From Prevotella sp. (GTDB taxonomy: Bacteria > Bacteroidota > Bacteroidia > Bacteroidales > Bacteroidaceae): DNA of 64,000 nucleotides. Below are positions 27,793-62,496 of the stretch, piece by piece; position 1 is the first letter of the stretch, and the number at the start of each line of letters is the position of its first letter. The notes below the pieces were generated by a model. That model saw nothing but the letters and a program-made list of their open reading frames with translations, was not told where the DNA came from and did no database searches. A program made the translations under genes and the position numbers. The stretch lies in the NCBI GenBank assembly GCA_022769285.1, contig JALEKD010000025.1, positions 1-64,000 on the forward strand, written 5' to 3'.

Positions 27793-30063
27793 ATGGACAC
27801 GCAGCAACCTAAAACCAAGGAAGAGTTGGAAGAGAAAATGGTAGATGATGCCTTTCAGCATCTGAAGGAAACCTATCTGGCCTCCAGGCACCGCAAGAAG
27901 ATAGACATCATTAACAAGGCTTTCAACTTTGCCCGCCAGGCACACAAGGGAGTAAAGAGGCTGTCTGGCGAGCCTTACATTCTGCACCCCATAGCCGTGG
28001 CCCAGATAGCCTGCGAGGAGATGGGCTTAGGGTCTACCAGCATCAGCGCGGCCCTGCTGCACGATGTGGTCGAGGACACCGACTATACCATCGAGGACAT
28101 CGAGAATATCTTCGGCCCGAAGATAGCCCAGATAGTAGACGGCCTCACCAAGATAAGCGGAGGCATCTTTGGCGAGCACGCGTCGGCCCAGGCCGAGAAT
28201 TTCAAGAAGTTGCTGCTCACCATGAGCGACGATATACGCGTCATACTCATCAAGATATGCGACCGGCTGCACAATATGCGCACCCTGGCATCACAGCCGG
28301 CCAACAAGCAGTACAAGATAGCCGGCGAGACACTCTATATCTACGCCCCGCTGGCCAACAGGCTGGGGCTCTACAAGATTAAGACCGAGCTGGAGAACCT
28401 GAGCTTCAAGTTTGAACACCCTGAAGAATACGCCAGCATCACTAACAAGCTGAACTTTACCAAGGAGCAGCGCGACAAACTCTTTGAGGACTTCACGGCA
28501 CCCATCCGCCAGTCGCTCGATGCCGCCGGGGTAAAGTACAAGATTATCGCACGTGTAAAGAGCCCCTACTCCATCTGGAACAAGATGCAGACCAAGCACG
28601 TAACCTTTGATGAGATATACGACATACTCGCCGTGCGCATCATCTTCACCCCCAAGGTGCGCGAGGAGGAGATTAACGAGTGCTTCAACATCTACGTGGC
28701 CATCAGCAAGATTTACAAGTCGCACCCCGACCGTCTGCGCGACTGGCTCAACCATCCCAAGGCCAACGGTTACCAGGCTCTGCACGTCACGTTGATGAGT
28801 AAACAGGGCCGGTGGATAGAAATACAGATACGGTCGGACCGTATGGACGAAATAGCAGAGCAAGGGTTTGCCGCGCACTGGAAGTATAAGGAGGGGGGAG
28901 ATATCCAGGAGGACGAGGGCGAACTGAATAACTGGCTGCGAACCATCAAGGAGATACTGGACGACCCGCAGCCCGATGCCATGGACTTCCTGGATGCTAT
29001 CAAACTCAACCTCTTTGCCTCGGAGATATTCGTCTTCACGCCCAAGGGCGAAATCAAGACCATGCCGGCTGGCTGTACGGCTCTCGACTTTGCCTTCCAG
29101 ATACACACGTTCTTAGGTAGCCACTGCATAGGGGCCAAGGTAAACCACAAGTTGGTTCCGCTGAGCCACAAGCTACAGAGTGGCGACCAGGTAGAAATTC
29201 TGGCTTCCAAGGCGCAGCACGTTCAGCCCTCGTGGATTAACTTTGTATCTACCGCCAAGGCCAAGGGAAAGATACAGGCCATCCTGCGCCGCGAGAACAG
29301 GGAGATACAGAAGCGGGGAGAAACCATTCTGAACGAGTGGATGCAGAAGAACGATCTGGCACCTACCACCTCGAATCTGGACAAGCTCTGCGAGTATCAC
29401 GACATGTCCAAGCATGAGGACCTGTTTCTCTCCATCGGTGAGCGAACCATCATCCTGGGCGAGAAGGACCTGGCCAAGCTCAACGAGAAAGACAAAAAGA
29501 GCGGCGTCACCACGGGCTGGAAGAAGTATGTGCCCTTCCTGAACCTGAATAAGGACAAAAAGAGCGAGCCTATAACTCCCGCCGAGCCGTTTACGGTCAA
29601 GGAGGGTTTCAACAAGAAGAAACCGTGCATCATCAACGAGGAGTATATCAGCAAGTACGTGTTCCGCCACTGCTGTCACCCCATCCCCGGCGACGACATC
29701 TTAGGCTACATAGATAATAAGAACCATATCGAGATACATAAGCGCAACTGTCCGGTGGCCAGCAAGCTCAAGACCAGCTTTGGCAACCGCATACTCGATG
29801 CTAAGTGGGATATGCACCGCCTGTTGTTCTTCGACGCTACGATAGAGATTAAGGGCATAGACCGCAAGGGTATGATACTCGATGTGGCGAGGGTCATCAC
29901 CGATGAGTTAGACATCAACATCCACAAGGTGACCGTCACGGCCGACAAGGGCATATTCGACGGCACCATAGAGCTTCGCGTACACGACCGAAGTGACGTC
30001 AAGCTGATTATGGAGAAGTTGAAGAAAGCTGAGGGACTGCAGGAAGTGATGCGCATCAACTAA
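27793..30063 (+). CDS. rsh: Bifunctional (p)ppGpp synthetase/hydrolase (RelA/SpoT homologue)
   Basis: A 756-aa stringent-response enzyme. An N-terminal HD hydrolase domain is intact (YILHPIAVAQ, ALLHDVVEDTDYT, KICDRLHNMRT), so degradation of (p)ppGpp is predicted. The synthetase domain has RVKSPYSIWNKM, FDEIYDILAVRI and GYQALHVTLM. These are followed by TGS (EIFVFTPKGEIKTMPAG), a zinc-finger-like helical region (FRHCCHPIPGDDILG) and a C-terminal ACT domain (EIKGIDRKGMILDVARVI). It is the last gene of the parAB run. Which activity dominates cannot be read from the sequence. Confidence 0.96.
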   Translation: MDTQQPKTKEELEEKMVDDAFQHLKETYLASRHRKKIDIINKAFNFARQAHKGVKRLSGEPYILHPIAVAQIACEEMGLGSTSISAALLHDVVEDTDYTIEDIENIFGPKIAQIVDGLTKISGGIFGEHASAQAENFKKLLLTMSDDIRVILIKICDRLHNMRTLASQPANKQYKIAGETLYIYAPLANRLGLYKIKTELENLSFKFEHPEEYASITNKLNFTKEQRDKLFEDFTAPIRQSLDAAGVKYKIIARVKSPYSIWNKMQTKHVTFDEIYDILAVRIIFTPKVREEEINECFNIYVAISKIYKSHPDRLRDWLNHPKANGYQALHVTLMSKQGRWIEIQIRSDRMDEIAEQGFAAHWKYKEGGDIQEDEGELNNWLRTIKEILDDPQPDAMDFLDAIKLNLFASEIFVFTPKGEIKTMPAGCTALDFAFQIHTFLGSHCIGAKVNHKLVPLSHKLQSGDQVEILASKAQHVQPSWINFVSTAKAKGKIQAILRRENREIQKRGETILNEWMQKNDLAPTTSNLDKLCEYHDMSKHEDLFLSIGERTIILGEKDLAKLNEKDKKSGVTTGWKKYVPFLNLNKDKKSEPITPAEPFTVKEGFNKKKPCIINEEYISKYVFRHCCHPIPGDDILGYIDNKNHIEIHKRNCPVASKLKTSFGNRILDAKWDMHRLLFFDATIEIKGIDRKGMILDVARVITDELDINIHKVTVTADKGIFDGTIELRVHDRSDVKLIMEKLKKAEGLQEVMRIN

Positions 30064-30176
30064 CGCCAGTTTACATCCTGCCGTTGCTTCTGCCGCCCCT
30101 ACCGTCCCCTCAGCCAAACCCATCATCGGCCCTGCCGGGCGAGCCTCTCCCCACCACCCCACTGCCATTCCGGGCT

Positions 30177-30262
30177 ACATTCTAAGACTTGGGATATACG
30201 TTTACGCTTTTCGGACGTACATCCTAAGGCTTCGGATGCACATCTCCAAGTTCTAAAGATGC
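30177..30262. repeat. Tandem array of four 21-nt units (family B)
   Basis: Units start ACATTCTAAGACTTGGGAT, ACGTTTACGCTTTTCGGAC, ACATCCTAAGGCTTCGGATG and ACATCTCCAAGTTCTAAAG, spaced exactly 21 nt (the last unit is 23 nt). Each is a weak dyad, CATCC...GGATG. The array lies in the 465-bp convergent gap between the rsh and merR genes. The remainder of that gap shows no gene. A matching array is at 58991-59074. Confidence 0.65.
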
Positions 30263-30528
30263 TCGCCCATCGTTCCTGGAAAAATAAAGGCCAGTTAGGA
30301 GAAGTGCTGAGGATGATGTGGCGCGAGCCCAGATAGTTGCTCCTCATAGCGGGATGGTTTCGGGTAGCACTGCCCTCATGCTGAGCACCCTACTATCCAC
30401 AAACCAAGTCAGTCTGATAAACGGCAAAACCGTGACGACGGCCCTGTATGCCGATGTCACGGTTCGTGTATTTATAGGAGATGCTTCCGCCAGCCCCGCC
30501 TATGTCCAGAATGTACGCGCAGCCCCTG

Positions 30529-30876
30529 CTATACTATCCCCGATAGGTGACGCTTCAGCTCCTGTAACTGACTGCGCACGGAGAGGAGCGTTTCGAGCAC
30601 CTCACTGCTCTTGTCCACACCCTTGCGGTTCTCTACCAGCATCTTACGGGCGGCAGCCAACTTGAAGCCACGCACCTTGACCAGGCTGTAGATGGTTTTG
30701 AGCAACTCCAAGTCCTCGGCCGTGTACTGGCGCACCTTGTTGAGCGCCTGCGTCTTCGGTCTGAGCTGCGGGAACTCTTTCTCCCAGTAGCGCAGAGTAC
30801 TCTCGTTAACGCCCAGCAACTGAGCTACCTCCTTGATGGAGTAGTAGAGCTTGAGCTCCTTGTCCTTTGTAAGCAT
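30529..30876 (-). CDS. MerR-family transcriptional regulator
   Basis: A 115-aa DNA-binding protein. The winged helix-turn-helix is plain ([30 protein letters not shown], then [32 protein letters not shown]) and is followed by a coiled coil ([21 protein letters not shown]). There are no cysteines or other ligand-binding domain at the C-terminus, so the effector is unknown. It is divergent from alaS, and the two promoters overlap face to face, so regulation of itself or of alaS is conceivable (inference). Confidence 0.92.
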
Positions 30877-35760: not shown

Positions 35761-36027
35761 GTAAAAAGTAAAGGAGTAAAAAGATAAAAAAACACTGCTG
35801 AAGACTGCCACTATCGTACCAATGGCTGTCGCAAGAAATAAAAGAACGGCCTTTAGCCTTCTAAAGACGGTTCCCAGCTTTCTAAAGACGGCTCCGGGAA
35901 ACATAAAGGTCAGTCTCCACGCTTTTAAGGATATATCCGACTACACCTGAGTGGCTCTCTGCCCCTCTACTTTTTACCTATTTACCTTTCGCAGCACTTT
36001 TTACCGTTTTACTCCTTTACTTTTTAC
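35761..36027. repeat. Long-spaced inverted repeat of heptad-like sequence
   Basis: GTAAAAAGTAAAGGAGTAAAA (35761-35781) recurs as its exact reverse complement at 36007-36027, 225 bp away. Further G(T/A)AAAAAG-type heptads flank both copies. The family A 21-nt array lies between the arms. The helicase and etfB are transcribed away from this 609-bp gap, which otherwise shows no gene. Confidence 0.65.
35845..35932. repeat. Tandem array of four 21-22-nt units (family A)
   Basis: Units align on ACGGC/ACGGT/ACGGC/TCAGT at 21, 21 and about 22 nt. The first contains the hairpin CTTTAG-CCTT-CTAAAG. The sequence is homologous to the arrays at 371-455 and, inverted, at 47706-47817. Confidence 0.65.
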
Positions 36028-38541: not shown

Positions 38542-38560
38542 ACAAAAACAATCCTCACCG

Positions 38561-38595
38561 ACTCCCTCCCCTTGGGGGAGGGCCGGGGTGGGGTC
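38561..38595 (+). repeat. GC-rich palindromic repeat, second copy
   Basis: ACTCCCTCCCCTTGGGGGAG followed by GGCCGGGGTGGGGTC lies 19 nt after the DUF559 stop. It forms a CCCTCCCC/GGGGGAGGG hairpin and pairs as an inverted repeat with the copy after etfA. Confidence 0.8.
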
Positions 38596-38617
38596 TAACA
38601 AAAATCCCCCAACCTAC

Positions 38618-38650
38618 TTCCTCCCTTTGTGGAGGACTGGGAAGGGGCTA
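38618..38650 (+). repeat. GC-rich palindromic repeat, third (diverged) copy
   Basis: CTTCCTCCCTTTGTGGAGGA followed by CTGGGAAGGGG keeps the hairpin shape with compensating changes. Together with the preceding AAAATCCCCCAAC it is a direct repeat of about 49 nt with the fourth copy. Confidence 0.7.
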
Positions 38651-38667
38651 AAAAAAGTCCCCAACTT

Positions 38668-38704
38668 GCTCCCTCCCCTTGGGGGAGGGCCGGGGAGGGG
38701 CTCC
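38668..38704 (+). repeat. GC-rich palindromic repeat, fourth copy, abutting a start codon
   Basis: TGCTCCCTCCCCTTGGGGGA followed by GGGCCGGGGAGGGGCTCC ends 6 nt before the acyl-CoA dehydrogenase ATG, so it forms the immediate 5' leader of that gene. Confidence 0.8.
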
Positions 38705-47705: not shown

Positions 47706-47817
47706 GAAACGGTCATTAAAAACCACGGAGACCAGTCTTTTAGATGTAGGAAGCCGTCTTTAGTGAGCTAAAGGCCGTCTTTAGAACCATAAAGGTCGGT
47801 CTTTAGAAAATCCGTGA
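47706..47817. repeat. Tandem array of five 21-23-nt units (family A, inverted)
   Basis: The marks CGGTC, CAGTC, CCGTC, CCGTC and CGGTC recur at 23, 21, 21 and 22 nt. The best units are CCGTCTTTAGTGAGCTAAAG and CCGTCTTTAGAACCATAAAG, each a CTTTAG-N4-CTAAAG-like hairpin. The reverse complement (GCCTTTAGCTCACTAAAGAC) aligns with the array at 35845. Confidence 0.7.
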
Positions 47818-58351: not shown

Positions 58352-58756
58352 ATGATAAACCGTAAAACATCCCTCATGCTCGCCTCTACGGTAGCTGCTG
58401 TAGCCGTGGCCCTGCTCATCAGCGCACGGCCGGCCGGCAACATCATCACGCGCAGTGGCAAGACCACCATCGTGAACACCACCCAACTGGGAAGCAGCGT
58501 ACGGGGCTTCAAGGGCAACACGCCCGTGCTGATATACATCAACAAGAATAAAGTGACCAAGGTTGAGGCGCTGCCCAACCAAGAGACGCCGCGGTTCTTT
58601 GCCCGCACCAAGGCCCTGTTGGCCCGCTTCGAGGGCATGACCGTAAGCAAGGCCGCCAAGGCAAACGTGGACGGGGTGACAGGAGCCACCTTCTCGTCCA
58701 AGGCGCTGAAGAAGAACGTAAAGCTCGGCTTGGAATACTACCAACAGCACAAGTAA
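58352..58756 (+). CDS. FMN-binding domain protein, exported
   Basis: A 134-aa protein with an N-terminal signal or anchor (SLMLASTVAAVAVALLISA) and an FMN-binding domain of the RnfG/NqrC type. GVTGATFSSKALKKNV holds the (S/T)GAT-x-(S/T) site to which ApbE attaches FMN through a phosphoester bond. No lipobox or haem motif is present. It probably carries electrons in the periplasm. No ApbE, Rnf or Nqr genes are adjacent, so its electron partner cannot be named. A strong terminator follows. Confidence 0.88.
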   Translation: MINRKTSLMLASTVAAVAVALLISARPAGNIITRSGKTTIVNTTQLGSSVRGFKGNTPVLIYINKNKVTKVEALPNQETPRFFARTKALLARFEGMTVSKAAKANVDGVTGATFSSKALKKNVKLGLEYYQQHK

Positions 58757-58819: not shown

Positions 58820-58990
58820 CTGTATAGGCGGCCATCGCCTGCCAGCCCGAATGAGCCACGGGGTGGCGGAGAGCACCCTATCCATCTCCCCTAACAATAG
58901 TTTCAACAGGGATTGCCCCTGCCAAAGGTCAGGGGACCTTACCCTCTTATCCGCCTACCCTTTTGGGTAGCACAGAGCGCCCCACAGACT

Positions 58991-59074
58991 TCATCCGAAG
59001 ACTTGGGACGGACATTCTAAACCATGGGATGCTCATCCATAGACTCCGAATGTACATCTCAAATCTTAGGATGG
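58991..59074. repeat. Tandem array of four 21-nt units (family B)
   Basis: Units begin TCATCCGAAGACTTGGGACG, ACATTCTAAACCATGGGATG, TCATCCATAGACTCCGAATG and ACATCTCAAATCTTAGGATG, spaced exactly 21 nt with no spacers. They share ACATTCTAA...GGGAT with the array at 30177. The array lies in a 512-bp gap between converging genes. Confidence 0.7.
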
Positions 59075-59178
59075 AGCCGGGGATGGGCCGGCGCTTATCC
59101 CCGATCCGCCATGGAGAGACGAGGCACGCTCTCGGTACCATCGGCACGCTGCGCCCGCCCATGGGATGCCAACAGCAA

Positions 59179-59268: not shown

Positions 59269-62200
59269 TTAGCGGATAACTACCGTACGGGCGCTGTTGC
59301 CATTGCGTACCACATAGACACCGGCGGCCAGCGCGGTGCAGTGCAGCGAGCCGTGGCCCTGGGCCACTACCTGTCCGGCGGTGGTACATACCTGTATCAG
59401 GGCGTTGGTGACGTTGGTAACGGTAACACTTTGACCGTCAATGCTGATGGCACCATCGGTCAGAGGCACACTGATGCCCACAGTGCTGGCCTCTACTTTC
59501 ACATTGTCTACATAGATATAGTTGATGTCCTTGACACACTCGCCCACGAAACCTACACGCAGCGTGCGGACATTCTCCAGACCGCTGAGGGCAACGGTGT
59601 GGTTGGCCCAGGCCGTGCTCTCGGCCACATCGGCTACATGCCGCCATGAGCCGTTGTCGGTGCTCACCTCTACGGCCAACTTCATGTTGCCCGTAGGCAT
59701 GATGCTGCTGAACGAGAGGGTAAGCGACTTGGCCCCAGCCGTAGCTATCTTAGGCGACTGCAGTCGGGCCTTATTGCCGACGGCATAGCCGACGAAGTCA
59801 GCGTACCCGCCGTCGCTCTCTACGTCTGCGTCAGCGCGGGGCTCCCACTTGCCGTTGTAGCTCTTGCCTGCCAGCGTGGCCGTAGTCCACAGCGTGGTGG
59901 TATAGGCGGCTCCGTCAAACTTCTCCTCGAAAGGCACAGCGTAGGACTTACCCACCAGGATGGTATCCGACGTGGTGGCCTTGGCAGCCTTGCCCACGGC
60001 ATTGTGGGCCAGTACGGTAAAGTAGGCTATGGCCTGCGTGCCGGTAATGTCTATATCGTTTACGGTAACCTGGGTGGCCTGTACATCCTTGGCCACGGTG
60101 ATACCCTGGTGGTTCTTCACGTCATAGAGGGTAGAGGCCACGTCTACGTAGCCGCCGTTGGCTCCGGTAGCTTCGGTGGCTGTCCAGGTCACCACGGCGG
60201 TGCCGTCGCCATTGTCAGTAACATGTACCTCAGCCGGCGAGAGGGGCGCGTCGGGCCCCACATAGGCTGTGGCCTCAGCGGCTTCGCCCTCGCCCTCGGC
60301 ATTGGACACCACTACCGAGTAGGTGTACTTTCCTGCGGCGGTCAGGGACTGATCGGCCACACTCACCTGGGTACCGGGAGCCACCTGGGCAGCCGTGGCC
60401 ACCTGGGTGGTACCGCGCTTAACGGTGTAAGTTACCGTGCCTGCCAGCGACTTACCGGCGGCGTTCAGGGTAGGTGTAGTAAAGGCGATGGTGGCCCCTA
60501 AGGCTCCCTTGTCGGCCGGCTTTACACTGAGGTCGGCCACTGGGGCGGGCACCAGCACGCTCTGGCCGGCGCTCACGGCCAGGTTGTCCAGATAGAGGTT
60601 ACCCTTGTTCTTCTCACTCACGGCATGGAAACCTATGTAGTACACGCCGTCGGCCTCGGGCATTATCTCGATGGTCTCCTGGGCGGGATTGCGCGAGGTA
60701 GCGGTGTACTCCTTGACCTCCTTCAGGGTGGTGGTCATGGCCGCAGCCGTAGCAGCCTGGCCCATACGTACCTCCATGCGCTCAGCGCTACGCGCGCTGA
60801 GCACCCAGGTAGTGTAGGTGAGTTTATACGACTTACCGGCCTGCAACTTGAGCGGTGGCAGGATGAACCAGTCGTCGGCATCGTTCTTCATATTGTAGCG
60901 ATAACGGGCGTTGCCGCCACTGATGGCCCACACGGAACCGTCGCCGTTGGCATCGACGATGGTAAACAGGCCGGCAGTAGCTGTGTTAGAAAAGTTATCG
61001 GCAAAGGGCGGAACCATGGTCGAGCCTATATTAATGGCATTAGAGGCTGTGGCTGTGCTCTTGTGGGTGCCGTTGACAGCCACCACCTTATAGGAATAAG
61101 AGCCGAGTTCCTCGCTGTCAAAGTCTTCGGCAAAGGTGGTAGCCTGGGTGGTGGCTACCTTGCCATCGGGTACGCGGGTAACCTCGTAAGTAAGCGCCGA
61201 GGCATCTATGTAGCCTCCGTTGATGCCCTTGGCAGGCGCAGTCCAGGTAATGGTATTGGTGGTACCCGTGCGGGTAAACTTGACATTGGTAACGGCCTCG
61301 GGAGTGTCGTAGCCCACGTACTGGGTGGTGTCAACGACGGGACTCTTGCCCACGGCGTTGGTCAGGGTTACGGCTATGGTGTACGTGCCGTCTTTGGGCA
61401 GGGTTACGGGGGCCGACACGGTGGCTCCGGCCTTGGCCGTGCCGCTGGCCACGGTCTGGCCGTTGGCTGTCACGCCGTAGGTAACATCGCCGCTGAGCGT
61501 GGCACCGCTATAGGTATCGGTGGGGACGGCAAAGCTGACGGTGCCCGTAAGCGCGCCACCGGCAAAGGCCACGCGGAGTTTCTCGGCAGGCGAGGGTACG
61601 CCGTCGGCAAACTCATGGGGCACGTAGGCACATACCACCTGGTCGCCATTGGGCAGGGCACCCACCTTGGTGGCGGCTCCTGTGATCAGGCTGACGGTAT
61701 AGAGATTGGCGGCCGCGTCTTGCTCGTTGGCAAACCAGTAGAACACGCCCGTGGCAGCATCAATGGTGGCTGCCTGGAAGTAAGCACCGGGACGCACGCC
61801 CGTGTCGCCTATCTTAGTCAGCTTTCCGGTGGTTTTATCTACACTTACCAGCGTGCCGCCATTGTTGGCGGTGCCTGTGGCAGCCGTCGAGGCGGTTATA
61901 CCGTAGAGCCGTCCGTCGGCCGTGCAGGCCAGCACACGCAGGGGAGCATCGAGGGGAGCTACCACGGTCTTGGTCATTCCCTCTAAGTCCCACGTGGCAA
62001 GCACATAGCTCAGTGCCTTGGTCGTAGTGTCGTAATGGAAGCTGCAGCAGTACACCGTGCCGGTCGTGGGGTCGGTGGCCACCGACATGGCGGCATTGTT
62101 GTAAGCCTTGTCTGTATCGTAGCCCACGCTCGTGCGGCTCAGCTGCTTGTTGGCAGCCAGGTCGTATTTGTAGTAGGTGGCCCATGACACGTAGCCGTAC

Positions 62201-62496
62201 TCTACGGCATAGTCATAGTAATACAGCACATTGTCCTTGACCACCGAACCGCCGCTGGCGCTGATACGGGGGATGGACACCACCTGCTTGCGGCTTACGG
62301 GAGCCGTGGCTGTGTAGTCGTACACACCAAAATTGTTGACATCCTTGGCATTGTCGTAAGTCATCAGTCCTCGTAGGCGTAGATTCTTCTGCGAGGCCGA
62401 CTTGGCAGGGGTCTGGGCGTAAGCCACAGCCGCCCCCAACACGGTCAACGAGACTACAGACATTAGCAACGCCATCGCGCGTAATGTTTTTCTCAT
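59269..62496 (-). CDS. Large secreted multidomain protein with fibronectin III, choice-of-anchor J and T9SS-type sorting domains
   Basis: A 1075-aa protein with a signal peptide (LLMSVVSLTVLGAAVAYAQ). The first 300 residues look like a propeller-type repeat region (VATDPTTGTVYCCSFHYDT, LACTADGRLYGITAS, ATIDAATGVFYWFANEQ). Fibronectin III-like domains follow (TPEAVTNVKFTRTGTTNTITW; PAEVHVTDNGDGTAVVTW). Two jelly-roll choice-of-anchor J domains come next (PPFADNFSNTATAGLF...YIGFHAVSEKNKGNLYLDNL; VPFEEKFDGAAYTTTLW...YIYVDNVKVEAS). The end, LIQVCTTAGQVVAQGHGSLHC...GVYVVRNG, is a type A sorting domain for T9SS. It is likely a surface protein or protease-like adhesin, but no catalytic domain is seen. 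Ala/Thr-rich composition. Confidence 0.85.
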   Translation of the reverse strand: MRKTLRAMALLMSVVSLTVLGAAVAYAQTPAKSASQKNLRLRGLMTYDNAKDVNNFGVYDYTATAPVSRKQVVSIPRISASGGSVVKDNVLYYYDYAVEYGYVSWATYYKYDLAANKQLSRTSVGYDTDKAYNNAAMSVATDPTTGTVYCCSFHYDTTTKALSYVLATWDLEGMTKTVVAPLDAPLRVLACTADGRLYGITASTAATGTANNGGTLVSVDKTTGKLTKIGDTGVRPGAYFQAATIDAATGVFYWFANEQDAAANLYTVSLITGAATKVGALPNGDQVVCAYVPHEFADGVPSPAEKLRVAFAGGALTGTVSFAVPTDTYSGATLSGDVTYGVTANGQTVASGTAKAGATVSAPVTLPKDGTYTIAVTLTNAVGKSPVVDTTQYVGYDTPEAVTNVKFTRTGTTNTITWTAPAKGINGGYIDASALTYEVTRVPDGKVATTQATTFAEDFDSEELGSYSYKVVAVNGTHKSTATASNAINIGSTMVPPFADNFSNTATAGLFTIVDANGDGSVWAISGGNARYRYNMKNDADDWFILPPLKLQAGKSYKLTYTTWVLSARSAERMEVRMGQAATAAAMTTTLKEVKEYTATSRNPAQETIEIMPEADGVYYIGFHAVSEKNKGNLYLDNLAVSAGQSVLVPAPVADLSVKPADKGALGATIAFTTPTLNAAGKSLAGTVTYTVKRGTTQVATAAQVAPGTQVSVADQSLTAAGKYTYSVVVSNAEGEGEAAEATAYVGPDAPLSPAEVHVTDNGDGTAVVTWTATEATGANGGYVDVASTLYDVKNHQGITVAKDVQATQVTVNDIDITGTQAIAYFTVLAHNAVGKAAKATTSDTILVGKSYAVPFEEKFDGAAYTTTLWTTATLAGKSYNGKWEPRADADVESDGGYADFVGYAVGNKARLQSPKIATAGAKSLTLSFSSIMPTGNMKLAVEVSTDNGSWRHVADVAESTAWANHTVALSGLENVRTLRVGFVGECVKDINYIYVDNVKVEASTVGISVPLTDGAISIDGQSVTVTNVTNALIQVCTTAGQVVAQGHGSLHCTALAAGVYVVRNGNSARTVVIR

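Follow-up and report, generated by a model that had tools for sequence, protein, structure and literature searches.

What are the two short tandem arrays that lie between converging genes on this Prevotella contig, and what might read them? Within the 64,000-nt stretch of DNA analysed here (the window), inspection of the sequence bears out the original prediction that four adjacent units with a 21-nt step occur at 58991-59074 and again at 30177-30262. These locations held, the ends did not: the complete elements, B2 and B1, are slightly longer, each spanning 92 bp with four dyads in exact 21-bp steps (Table 1), and they carry terminal inverted repeats at their ends (GGCTCCGTCCGAAG / CTTCGGACGGAGCC) that had been overlooked. 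B1 is flanked by a RelA/SpoT-type gene (27793-30063) and a MerR-type regulator gene (30529-30876), B2 by the gene for an FMN-binding protein (58352-58756) and that for a large protein with weak fn3-like matches (59269-62496).

Table 1. Family-B elements in the window and their parts (window positions)
Feature	Position	Strand	Remarks
Family-B element B2	58987..59078	.	four 15-bp dyads, 21-bp steps, terminal inverted repeat
B2 left terminal end	58987-58992		degenerate, GACTTC
B2 dyad 1	58994..59008	.	TCCGAAGACTTGGGA; register from family alignment
B2 dyad 2	59015..59029	.	TTCTAAACCATGGGA; register from family alignment
B2 dyad 3	59036..59050	.	TCCATAGACTCCGAA; register from family alignment
B2 dyad 4	59057..59071	.	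TCTCAAATCTTAGGA; register from family alignment
B2 right terminal inverted-repeat end	59073..59078	.	GGAGCC
Family-B element B1	30173..30264	.	four dyads, 21-bp steps; right terminal end degenerate
B1 dyad cores	30180-30194, 30201-30215, 30222-30236, 30243-30257		

Both arrays belong to a large family. With the window array 58981-59080 as the sole query, BLAST returned 17 other loci in the source genome (2.32 Mb, 52 contigs, 84.6% complete; best E = 1.8e-11), and a sequence-only model trained on 19 copies—18 of the final set plus the second window array, for which the model's E-values are not independent—brought family B to 41 elements in 2.3 Mb. All 41 measure 92 bp, with zero indels despite a mean pairwise identity of about 57%, and each consists of exactly four 15-bp dyads (skeleton T.C..A...T..G.A) at a 21-bp step, closed by the ends GGCTCC/GGAGCC. 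A pattern of four such skeletons, allowing up to three mismatches, matched 28 times in this genome versus 0 times for the reversed control pattern. The expectation that a genome scan would uncover further four-unit copies in 21-bp phase thus came true, while the convergent-gene setting, correct for both window arrays, did not generalise: the elements are intergenic, with flanking genes in tandem (21), convergent (10) or divergent (8) orientation and two elements at contig ends, and these mixed orientations rule out a terminator for convergent genes. Nor are the arrays coding repeats; as had been claimed, they make no coding sense, with stops in all six frames and even the best frame interrupted in 12 of the 41. 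An inward promoter motif lies within 60 bp of only 2/41 arrays, which rules out a general promoter operator and sets the dispersed copies apart from ordinary operators. Alongside family B, a second dispersed quasi-palindromic family with a 21-bp lag, family A (CTAAAGACGGCTCC, ends AGACCGACCTTTA/TAAAGGTCGGTCT), occurs in the window at 35840-35925 and 47727-47812 and at about 40 loci of the source genome.

Which protein could such arrays serve? One of the two promoter-adjoining copies belongs to a gene whose product recurs as an array neighbour: 209-226 aa long, it combines a Pfam HU-HIG domain (PF18291) with a C-terminal region. Five array-linked proteins, including that of the source genome, score 50.2-71.0 bits against the HU-HIG cut-off of 26.2, and 43-67 bits, below the cut-off of 68.6, against TIGR01201 (HU_rel). 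Winged-helix similarity in the C-terminal region is weak, one of the five giving an HTH_24 match (E 0.014) that falls short of the cut-off, and the C-terminal helices are predicted at pLDDT 83-92 within an overall modest model (pLDDT 75.9, pTM 0.39), for which a fold search returned 4fmr (E 9.9e-5) followed by HU/IHF chains with weaker E-values. By domain score the protein is a member of HU-HIG, with an HU domain fused to a predicted winged-helix region, and we refer to it as HU-wHTH. HU/IHF clades were reportedly surveyed in 2017. The source genome holds a single HU-wHTH gene, located outside the window (C46:4274-4903), and the protein was present in 35 of 150 genus genomes searched as well as in cultured isolates such as Prevotella ruminicola KHT3; a Bacteroides finegoldii example is WP_022275387.1. 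No homologue was found in phage records, no HU-wHTH gene lay beside family A in the 20 loci examined, and our search for binding or expression data on these proteins returned none.

In the source genome, the family-B model confirms an array between a TATCTTTG promoter motif and the HU-wHTH start codon, a copy that ranks among the more diverged members of the family (66% to the consensus versus a median of 75%). The same arrangement recurs widely. In a first collection, of whole genomes, 29 of the first 30 HU-wHTH genes passed a lag-21 identity of 0.5 within 350 bp upstream; the thirtieth is the source genome's own, with the array just described. Among named genomes, at a lag-21 identity cut-off of 0.55, an array lay no more than 350 bp upstream in 74/77 HU-wHTH loci and in 0/71 control regions (700-1050 bp upstream), counts that are not fully independent in that many loci are interrelated and species are partly common to both collections. 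The three loci below the cut-off still show arrays by inspection, one with a 22-bp step. Median identity was 0.71 at lag 21 versus 0.37-0.44 at the other lags from 16 to 26. These loci come mostly from Prevotella and Prevotellaceae in ruminant gut metagenomes, and the contig scan for HU-wHTH relied on a narrow alignment favouring one protein clade. A TANNTTTG promoter motif precedes the array by 10-60 bp in 65 of the 77 named loci; in a divergent protein clade (G135, G065, G095) the order is reversed, with the array upstream of the promoter motif. A lag-23 repeat outscores lag 21 in three genomes (G015, G110, G153), in all of which the four-unit array is plain; there, array and HU-wHTH gene have a distinct 23-bp direct repeat (ACAGCTGTTCATTCGGAACG-like) between them (L170, L171, L172).

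Are the dyads read as double-stranded DNA, or do they fold as RNA? In family B, base preferences are symmetric around every dyad centre, and each half varies independently of the other: bases able to pair stand at positions 1 and 13 in 101/160 units versus 104 expected. No Watson-Crick covariation across the dyad or a whole-element hairpin appeared in 40 copies, and no long-hairpin pairing exceeded expectation. Two pairs of near-centre positions are correlated, 4:10 and 6:8, of which 6:8 would be unable to pair in a hairpin. Symmetric preferences without covariation are more readily explained if the dyads are recognised as duplex DNA than if a single strand folds. An Rfam search of the window matched only a tRNA and none of the arrays; a structured RNA was rejected on this ground and for lack of covariation. 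Still, could the arrays act as RNA, either as a four-hairpin leader or as one long hairpin, to control the HU gene or stabilise transcripts? The array mostly sits between promoter motif and start codon, where it would be transcribed, and many single copies can be folded into long imperfect hairpins. Against this stand the missing covariation, the position of the array upstream of the promoter motif in the divergent clade and the lack of promoter motifs adjoining dispersed copies; we consider such a role very improbable. The original prediction had offered two ideas here, and they fared differently. That each unit might fold as RNA is not supported: bases facing each other across the dyad are paired no more often than expected, and one protein clade has the array upstream of the promoter motif. 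That one protein per unit would sit on one face of the DNA agrees well with the symmetric preferences, the invariant 21-bp step, the absence of indels and the repeated presence of a DNA-binding protein's gene beside the arrays.

Turning to other genomes, a search among relatives gave matches in two, alike in layout but different in letters, and a skeleton-only pattern matched in 34 of 299 genus genomes; skeleton matches in G186, G001, G148, G008, G167 and G145 were discarded as coding or longer repeat tracts. Different species carry four-unit arrays of different sequence, for example TTCAAAGCTTTTGAA, TACCCAACTTGGGTA and TACGCAAGTTGCGTA. Of the 24 HU-wHTH Prevotella genomes searched, 23 contain dispersed full-length copies that match HU-upstream arrays, G102 for instance 13 or more and G146 20 or more; the query joined 17 HU-upstream arrays rather than every genome's own, and these counts are therefore lower bounds. 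Outside the genus, 4/5 genomes searched held such dispersed full-length matching copies, G503 about 30 or more closely similar ones. Four-unit arrays with a 21- or 22-bp step also stand upstream of homologues outside the genus, in other families too (G058, G409, G503, G463, G435, G403), and of homologues in records labelled as plasmids from Parabacteroides distasonis, Bacteroides finegoldii and Phocaeicola massiliensis; a few more distant homologues show no clear upstream array. Two array sites are orthologous between G102 and G103, and an empty-site comparison at one locus found the orthologous site to be array-bearing as well. Some arrays of these two genomes (flanks L254, L255, L258, L261, L264, L266, L269) are embedded in longer shared mosaic repeats, which include GTGATAGAAGTGATAGAAG tracts followed by alternating GCGCGC stretches.

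Such dispersal raises the question of mobility. The arrays could be short palindromic, MITE-like cassettes moved in trans by some transposase; the HU-wHTH gene would then simply have acquired one, or the protein would be a host factor or silencer of the mobile element. Family B does combine terminal inverted repeats, non-coding sequence and multiple copies, all of them MITE criteria, and to these are added the intergenic placement, the whole-unit duplication of dispersed copies (86-90% identical to the query in G503) and the longer flanks that arrays share in G015, G102 and G103. Several observations pull the other way: flanking direct repeats show no excess among the 41 copies of the source genome, leaving no sign of a target-site duplication there; no catalytic protein is linked to the arrays; and the two orthologous G102/G103 sites have kept theirs. 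About 96% of HU-wHTH genes carry a promoter-proximal array, in many sequence versions, which is unlike random insertion, and the zero indels at about 57% mean pairwise identity in the source genome also count against mobility. We therefore regard mobility as the primary explanation as possible but rather unlikely.

Do arrays and HU-wHTH proteins vary together? Distinct dyad cores were found in 70/76 named-locus arrays, and all 76 share a T (position 0) and an A (position 14); about a third of the arrays may have a fifth unit at a lax cut-off. Array distance tracks protein distance (Mantel r = 0.39 with the HU half, at p = 3e-4, and 0.34 with the winged-helix half). The distances of the two halves also correlate strongly with each other (0.84), and in a partial Mantel test significance survives for the HU half alone (r = 0.20, p = 3e-4). 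Specificity set by the winged helix alone is accordingly not supported. Paralogues within one genome usually have clearly different arrays, and three G106 paralogues, whose winged-helix regions are 90-94% identical to a sister's, have different dyads. These correlations lean towards the HU half as the part that would read the dyad core. Might another protein bind the arrays instead, with the HU-wHTH genes merely one conserved target of that regulator? Binding by HU-wHTH is something we infer, and the few array-bearing genomes in which no HU-wHTH gene was detected (G176, 94% complete, and the drafts G268 and G096) would suit this alternative. It accounts poorly for paralogous HU-wHTH genes that differ in their arrays, for array similarity that follows HU protein similarity and for dispersed copies that match the local HU-upstream array, and we judge it improbable.

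Together, we think it likely that the arrays are composite, phased four-dyad docking sites whose reader, a homodimeric HU-HIG/winged-helix protein, is a product of the genome that carries them. The copy at the promoter hints at autoregulation, with the protein probably limiting its own synthesis there, and the other 40 copies would present the same site, occupied by the same protein, across intergenic DNA. Spaced two helical turns apart, four dimers could all sit on the same side of the helix, bending the DNA or wrapping it to form a local nucleoprotein node. The cassettes would duplicate as whole units, and the site sequence may drift together with the protein, giving an orthogonal pair per lineage or paralogue. 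The dispersed copies are less likely to be operators than to form chromosomal nodes or a titration pool, or to be passengers that spread as MITE-like cassettes. In its broadest form, the proposal casts the HU-wHTH proteins of Bacteroidales as diversifying, sequence-specific nucleoid proteins with private cassettes that serve as autoregulatory switches and as tens of nodes per genome, several orthogonal pairs sharing one cell; to this we give an even chance.

How does this compare with known systems? REP/BIME elements with their RAYT proteins are species-specific palindromic intergenic repeats, present in tens of copies, one of which lies beside the gene for the cognate protein. The layout is alike—intergenic palindromic repeats with a copy beside the partner gene—but RAYT is a Y1 transposase, whereas the partner here is HU-wHTH, the unit number is fixed, the phase is fixed at 21/22 bp, and the array usually lies directly at the promoter. 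MatP-matS, ParB-parS and Noc-NBS each pair a dedicated protein with dispersed palindromic chromosomal sites that shape the chromosome. The present arrays resemble them in this pairing, putative as the binding is, and differ in being four-dyad arrays of lineage-specific sequence, where the sites of those systems occur singly, are short and keep their sequence from one species to another. In plasmid iterons, direct repeats of about 21-22 bp place bound proteins on one DNA face; here, by contrast, the copies are dispersed over the chromosome without a tie to an origin, the units are dyads and the partner is not a Rep protein. The BrickBuilt MITE of Porphyromonas gingivalis, likewise intergenic, in a Bacteroidales genome and built of tandem units of similar size, has a 23-nt unit (AGAYCATARTATCCTCTCRTRTG), a variable unit number and a long leader and tail (PMC4596501); the different unit sequence, the 21-bp step and the four units found here rule out a relationship. 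For HU-HIG and HU_rel, the libraries searched attach no DNA site to either family. Likewise, we found no description of these arrays or of HU-HIG DNA targets in the open literature, which is weak evidence as most subscription journals lay outside its scope. The protein family is already known by name. Cassettes of one kind in front of HU-type genes across the Bacteroidales, with a sequence proper to each lineage, point to a so far undescribed class of bacterial proteins that would mark the chromosome with docking sites of their own.

HU-type proteins are usually regarded as nearly non-specific packers of DNA. HU fusions with private, fast-changing arrays of fixed geometry would, if real, constitute a new kind of system, regulatory or chromosome-organising, in one of the major groups of gut bacteria, and the arrays give the HU-HIG family a candidate DNA target. 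Protein–array pairs of differing specificity form a natural data set for a recognition code and might yield orthogonal DNA-binding tools; their occurrence in cultured isolates makes the link testable at once. Elsewhere in the window, a G-rich 53-bp tandem repeat (38557-38702, 2.7 copies) overlaps the region where a predicted ORF of 614 aa starts.
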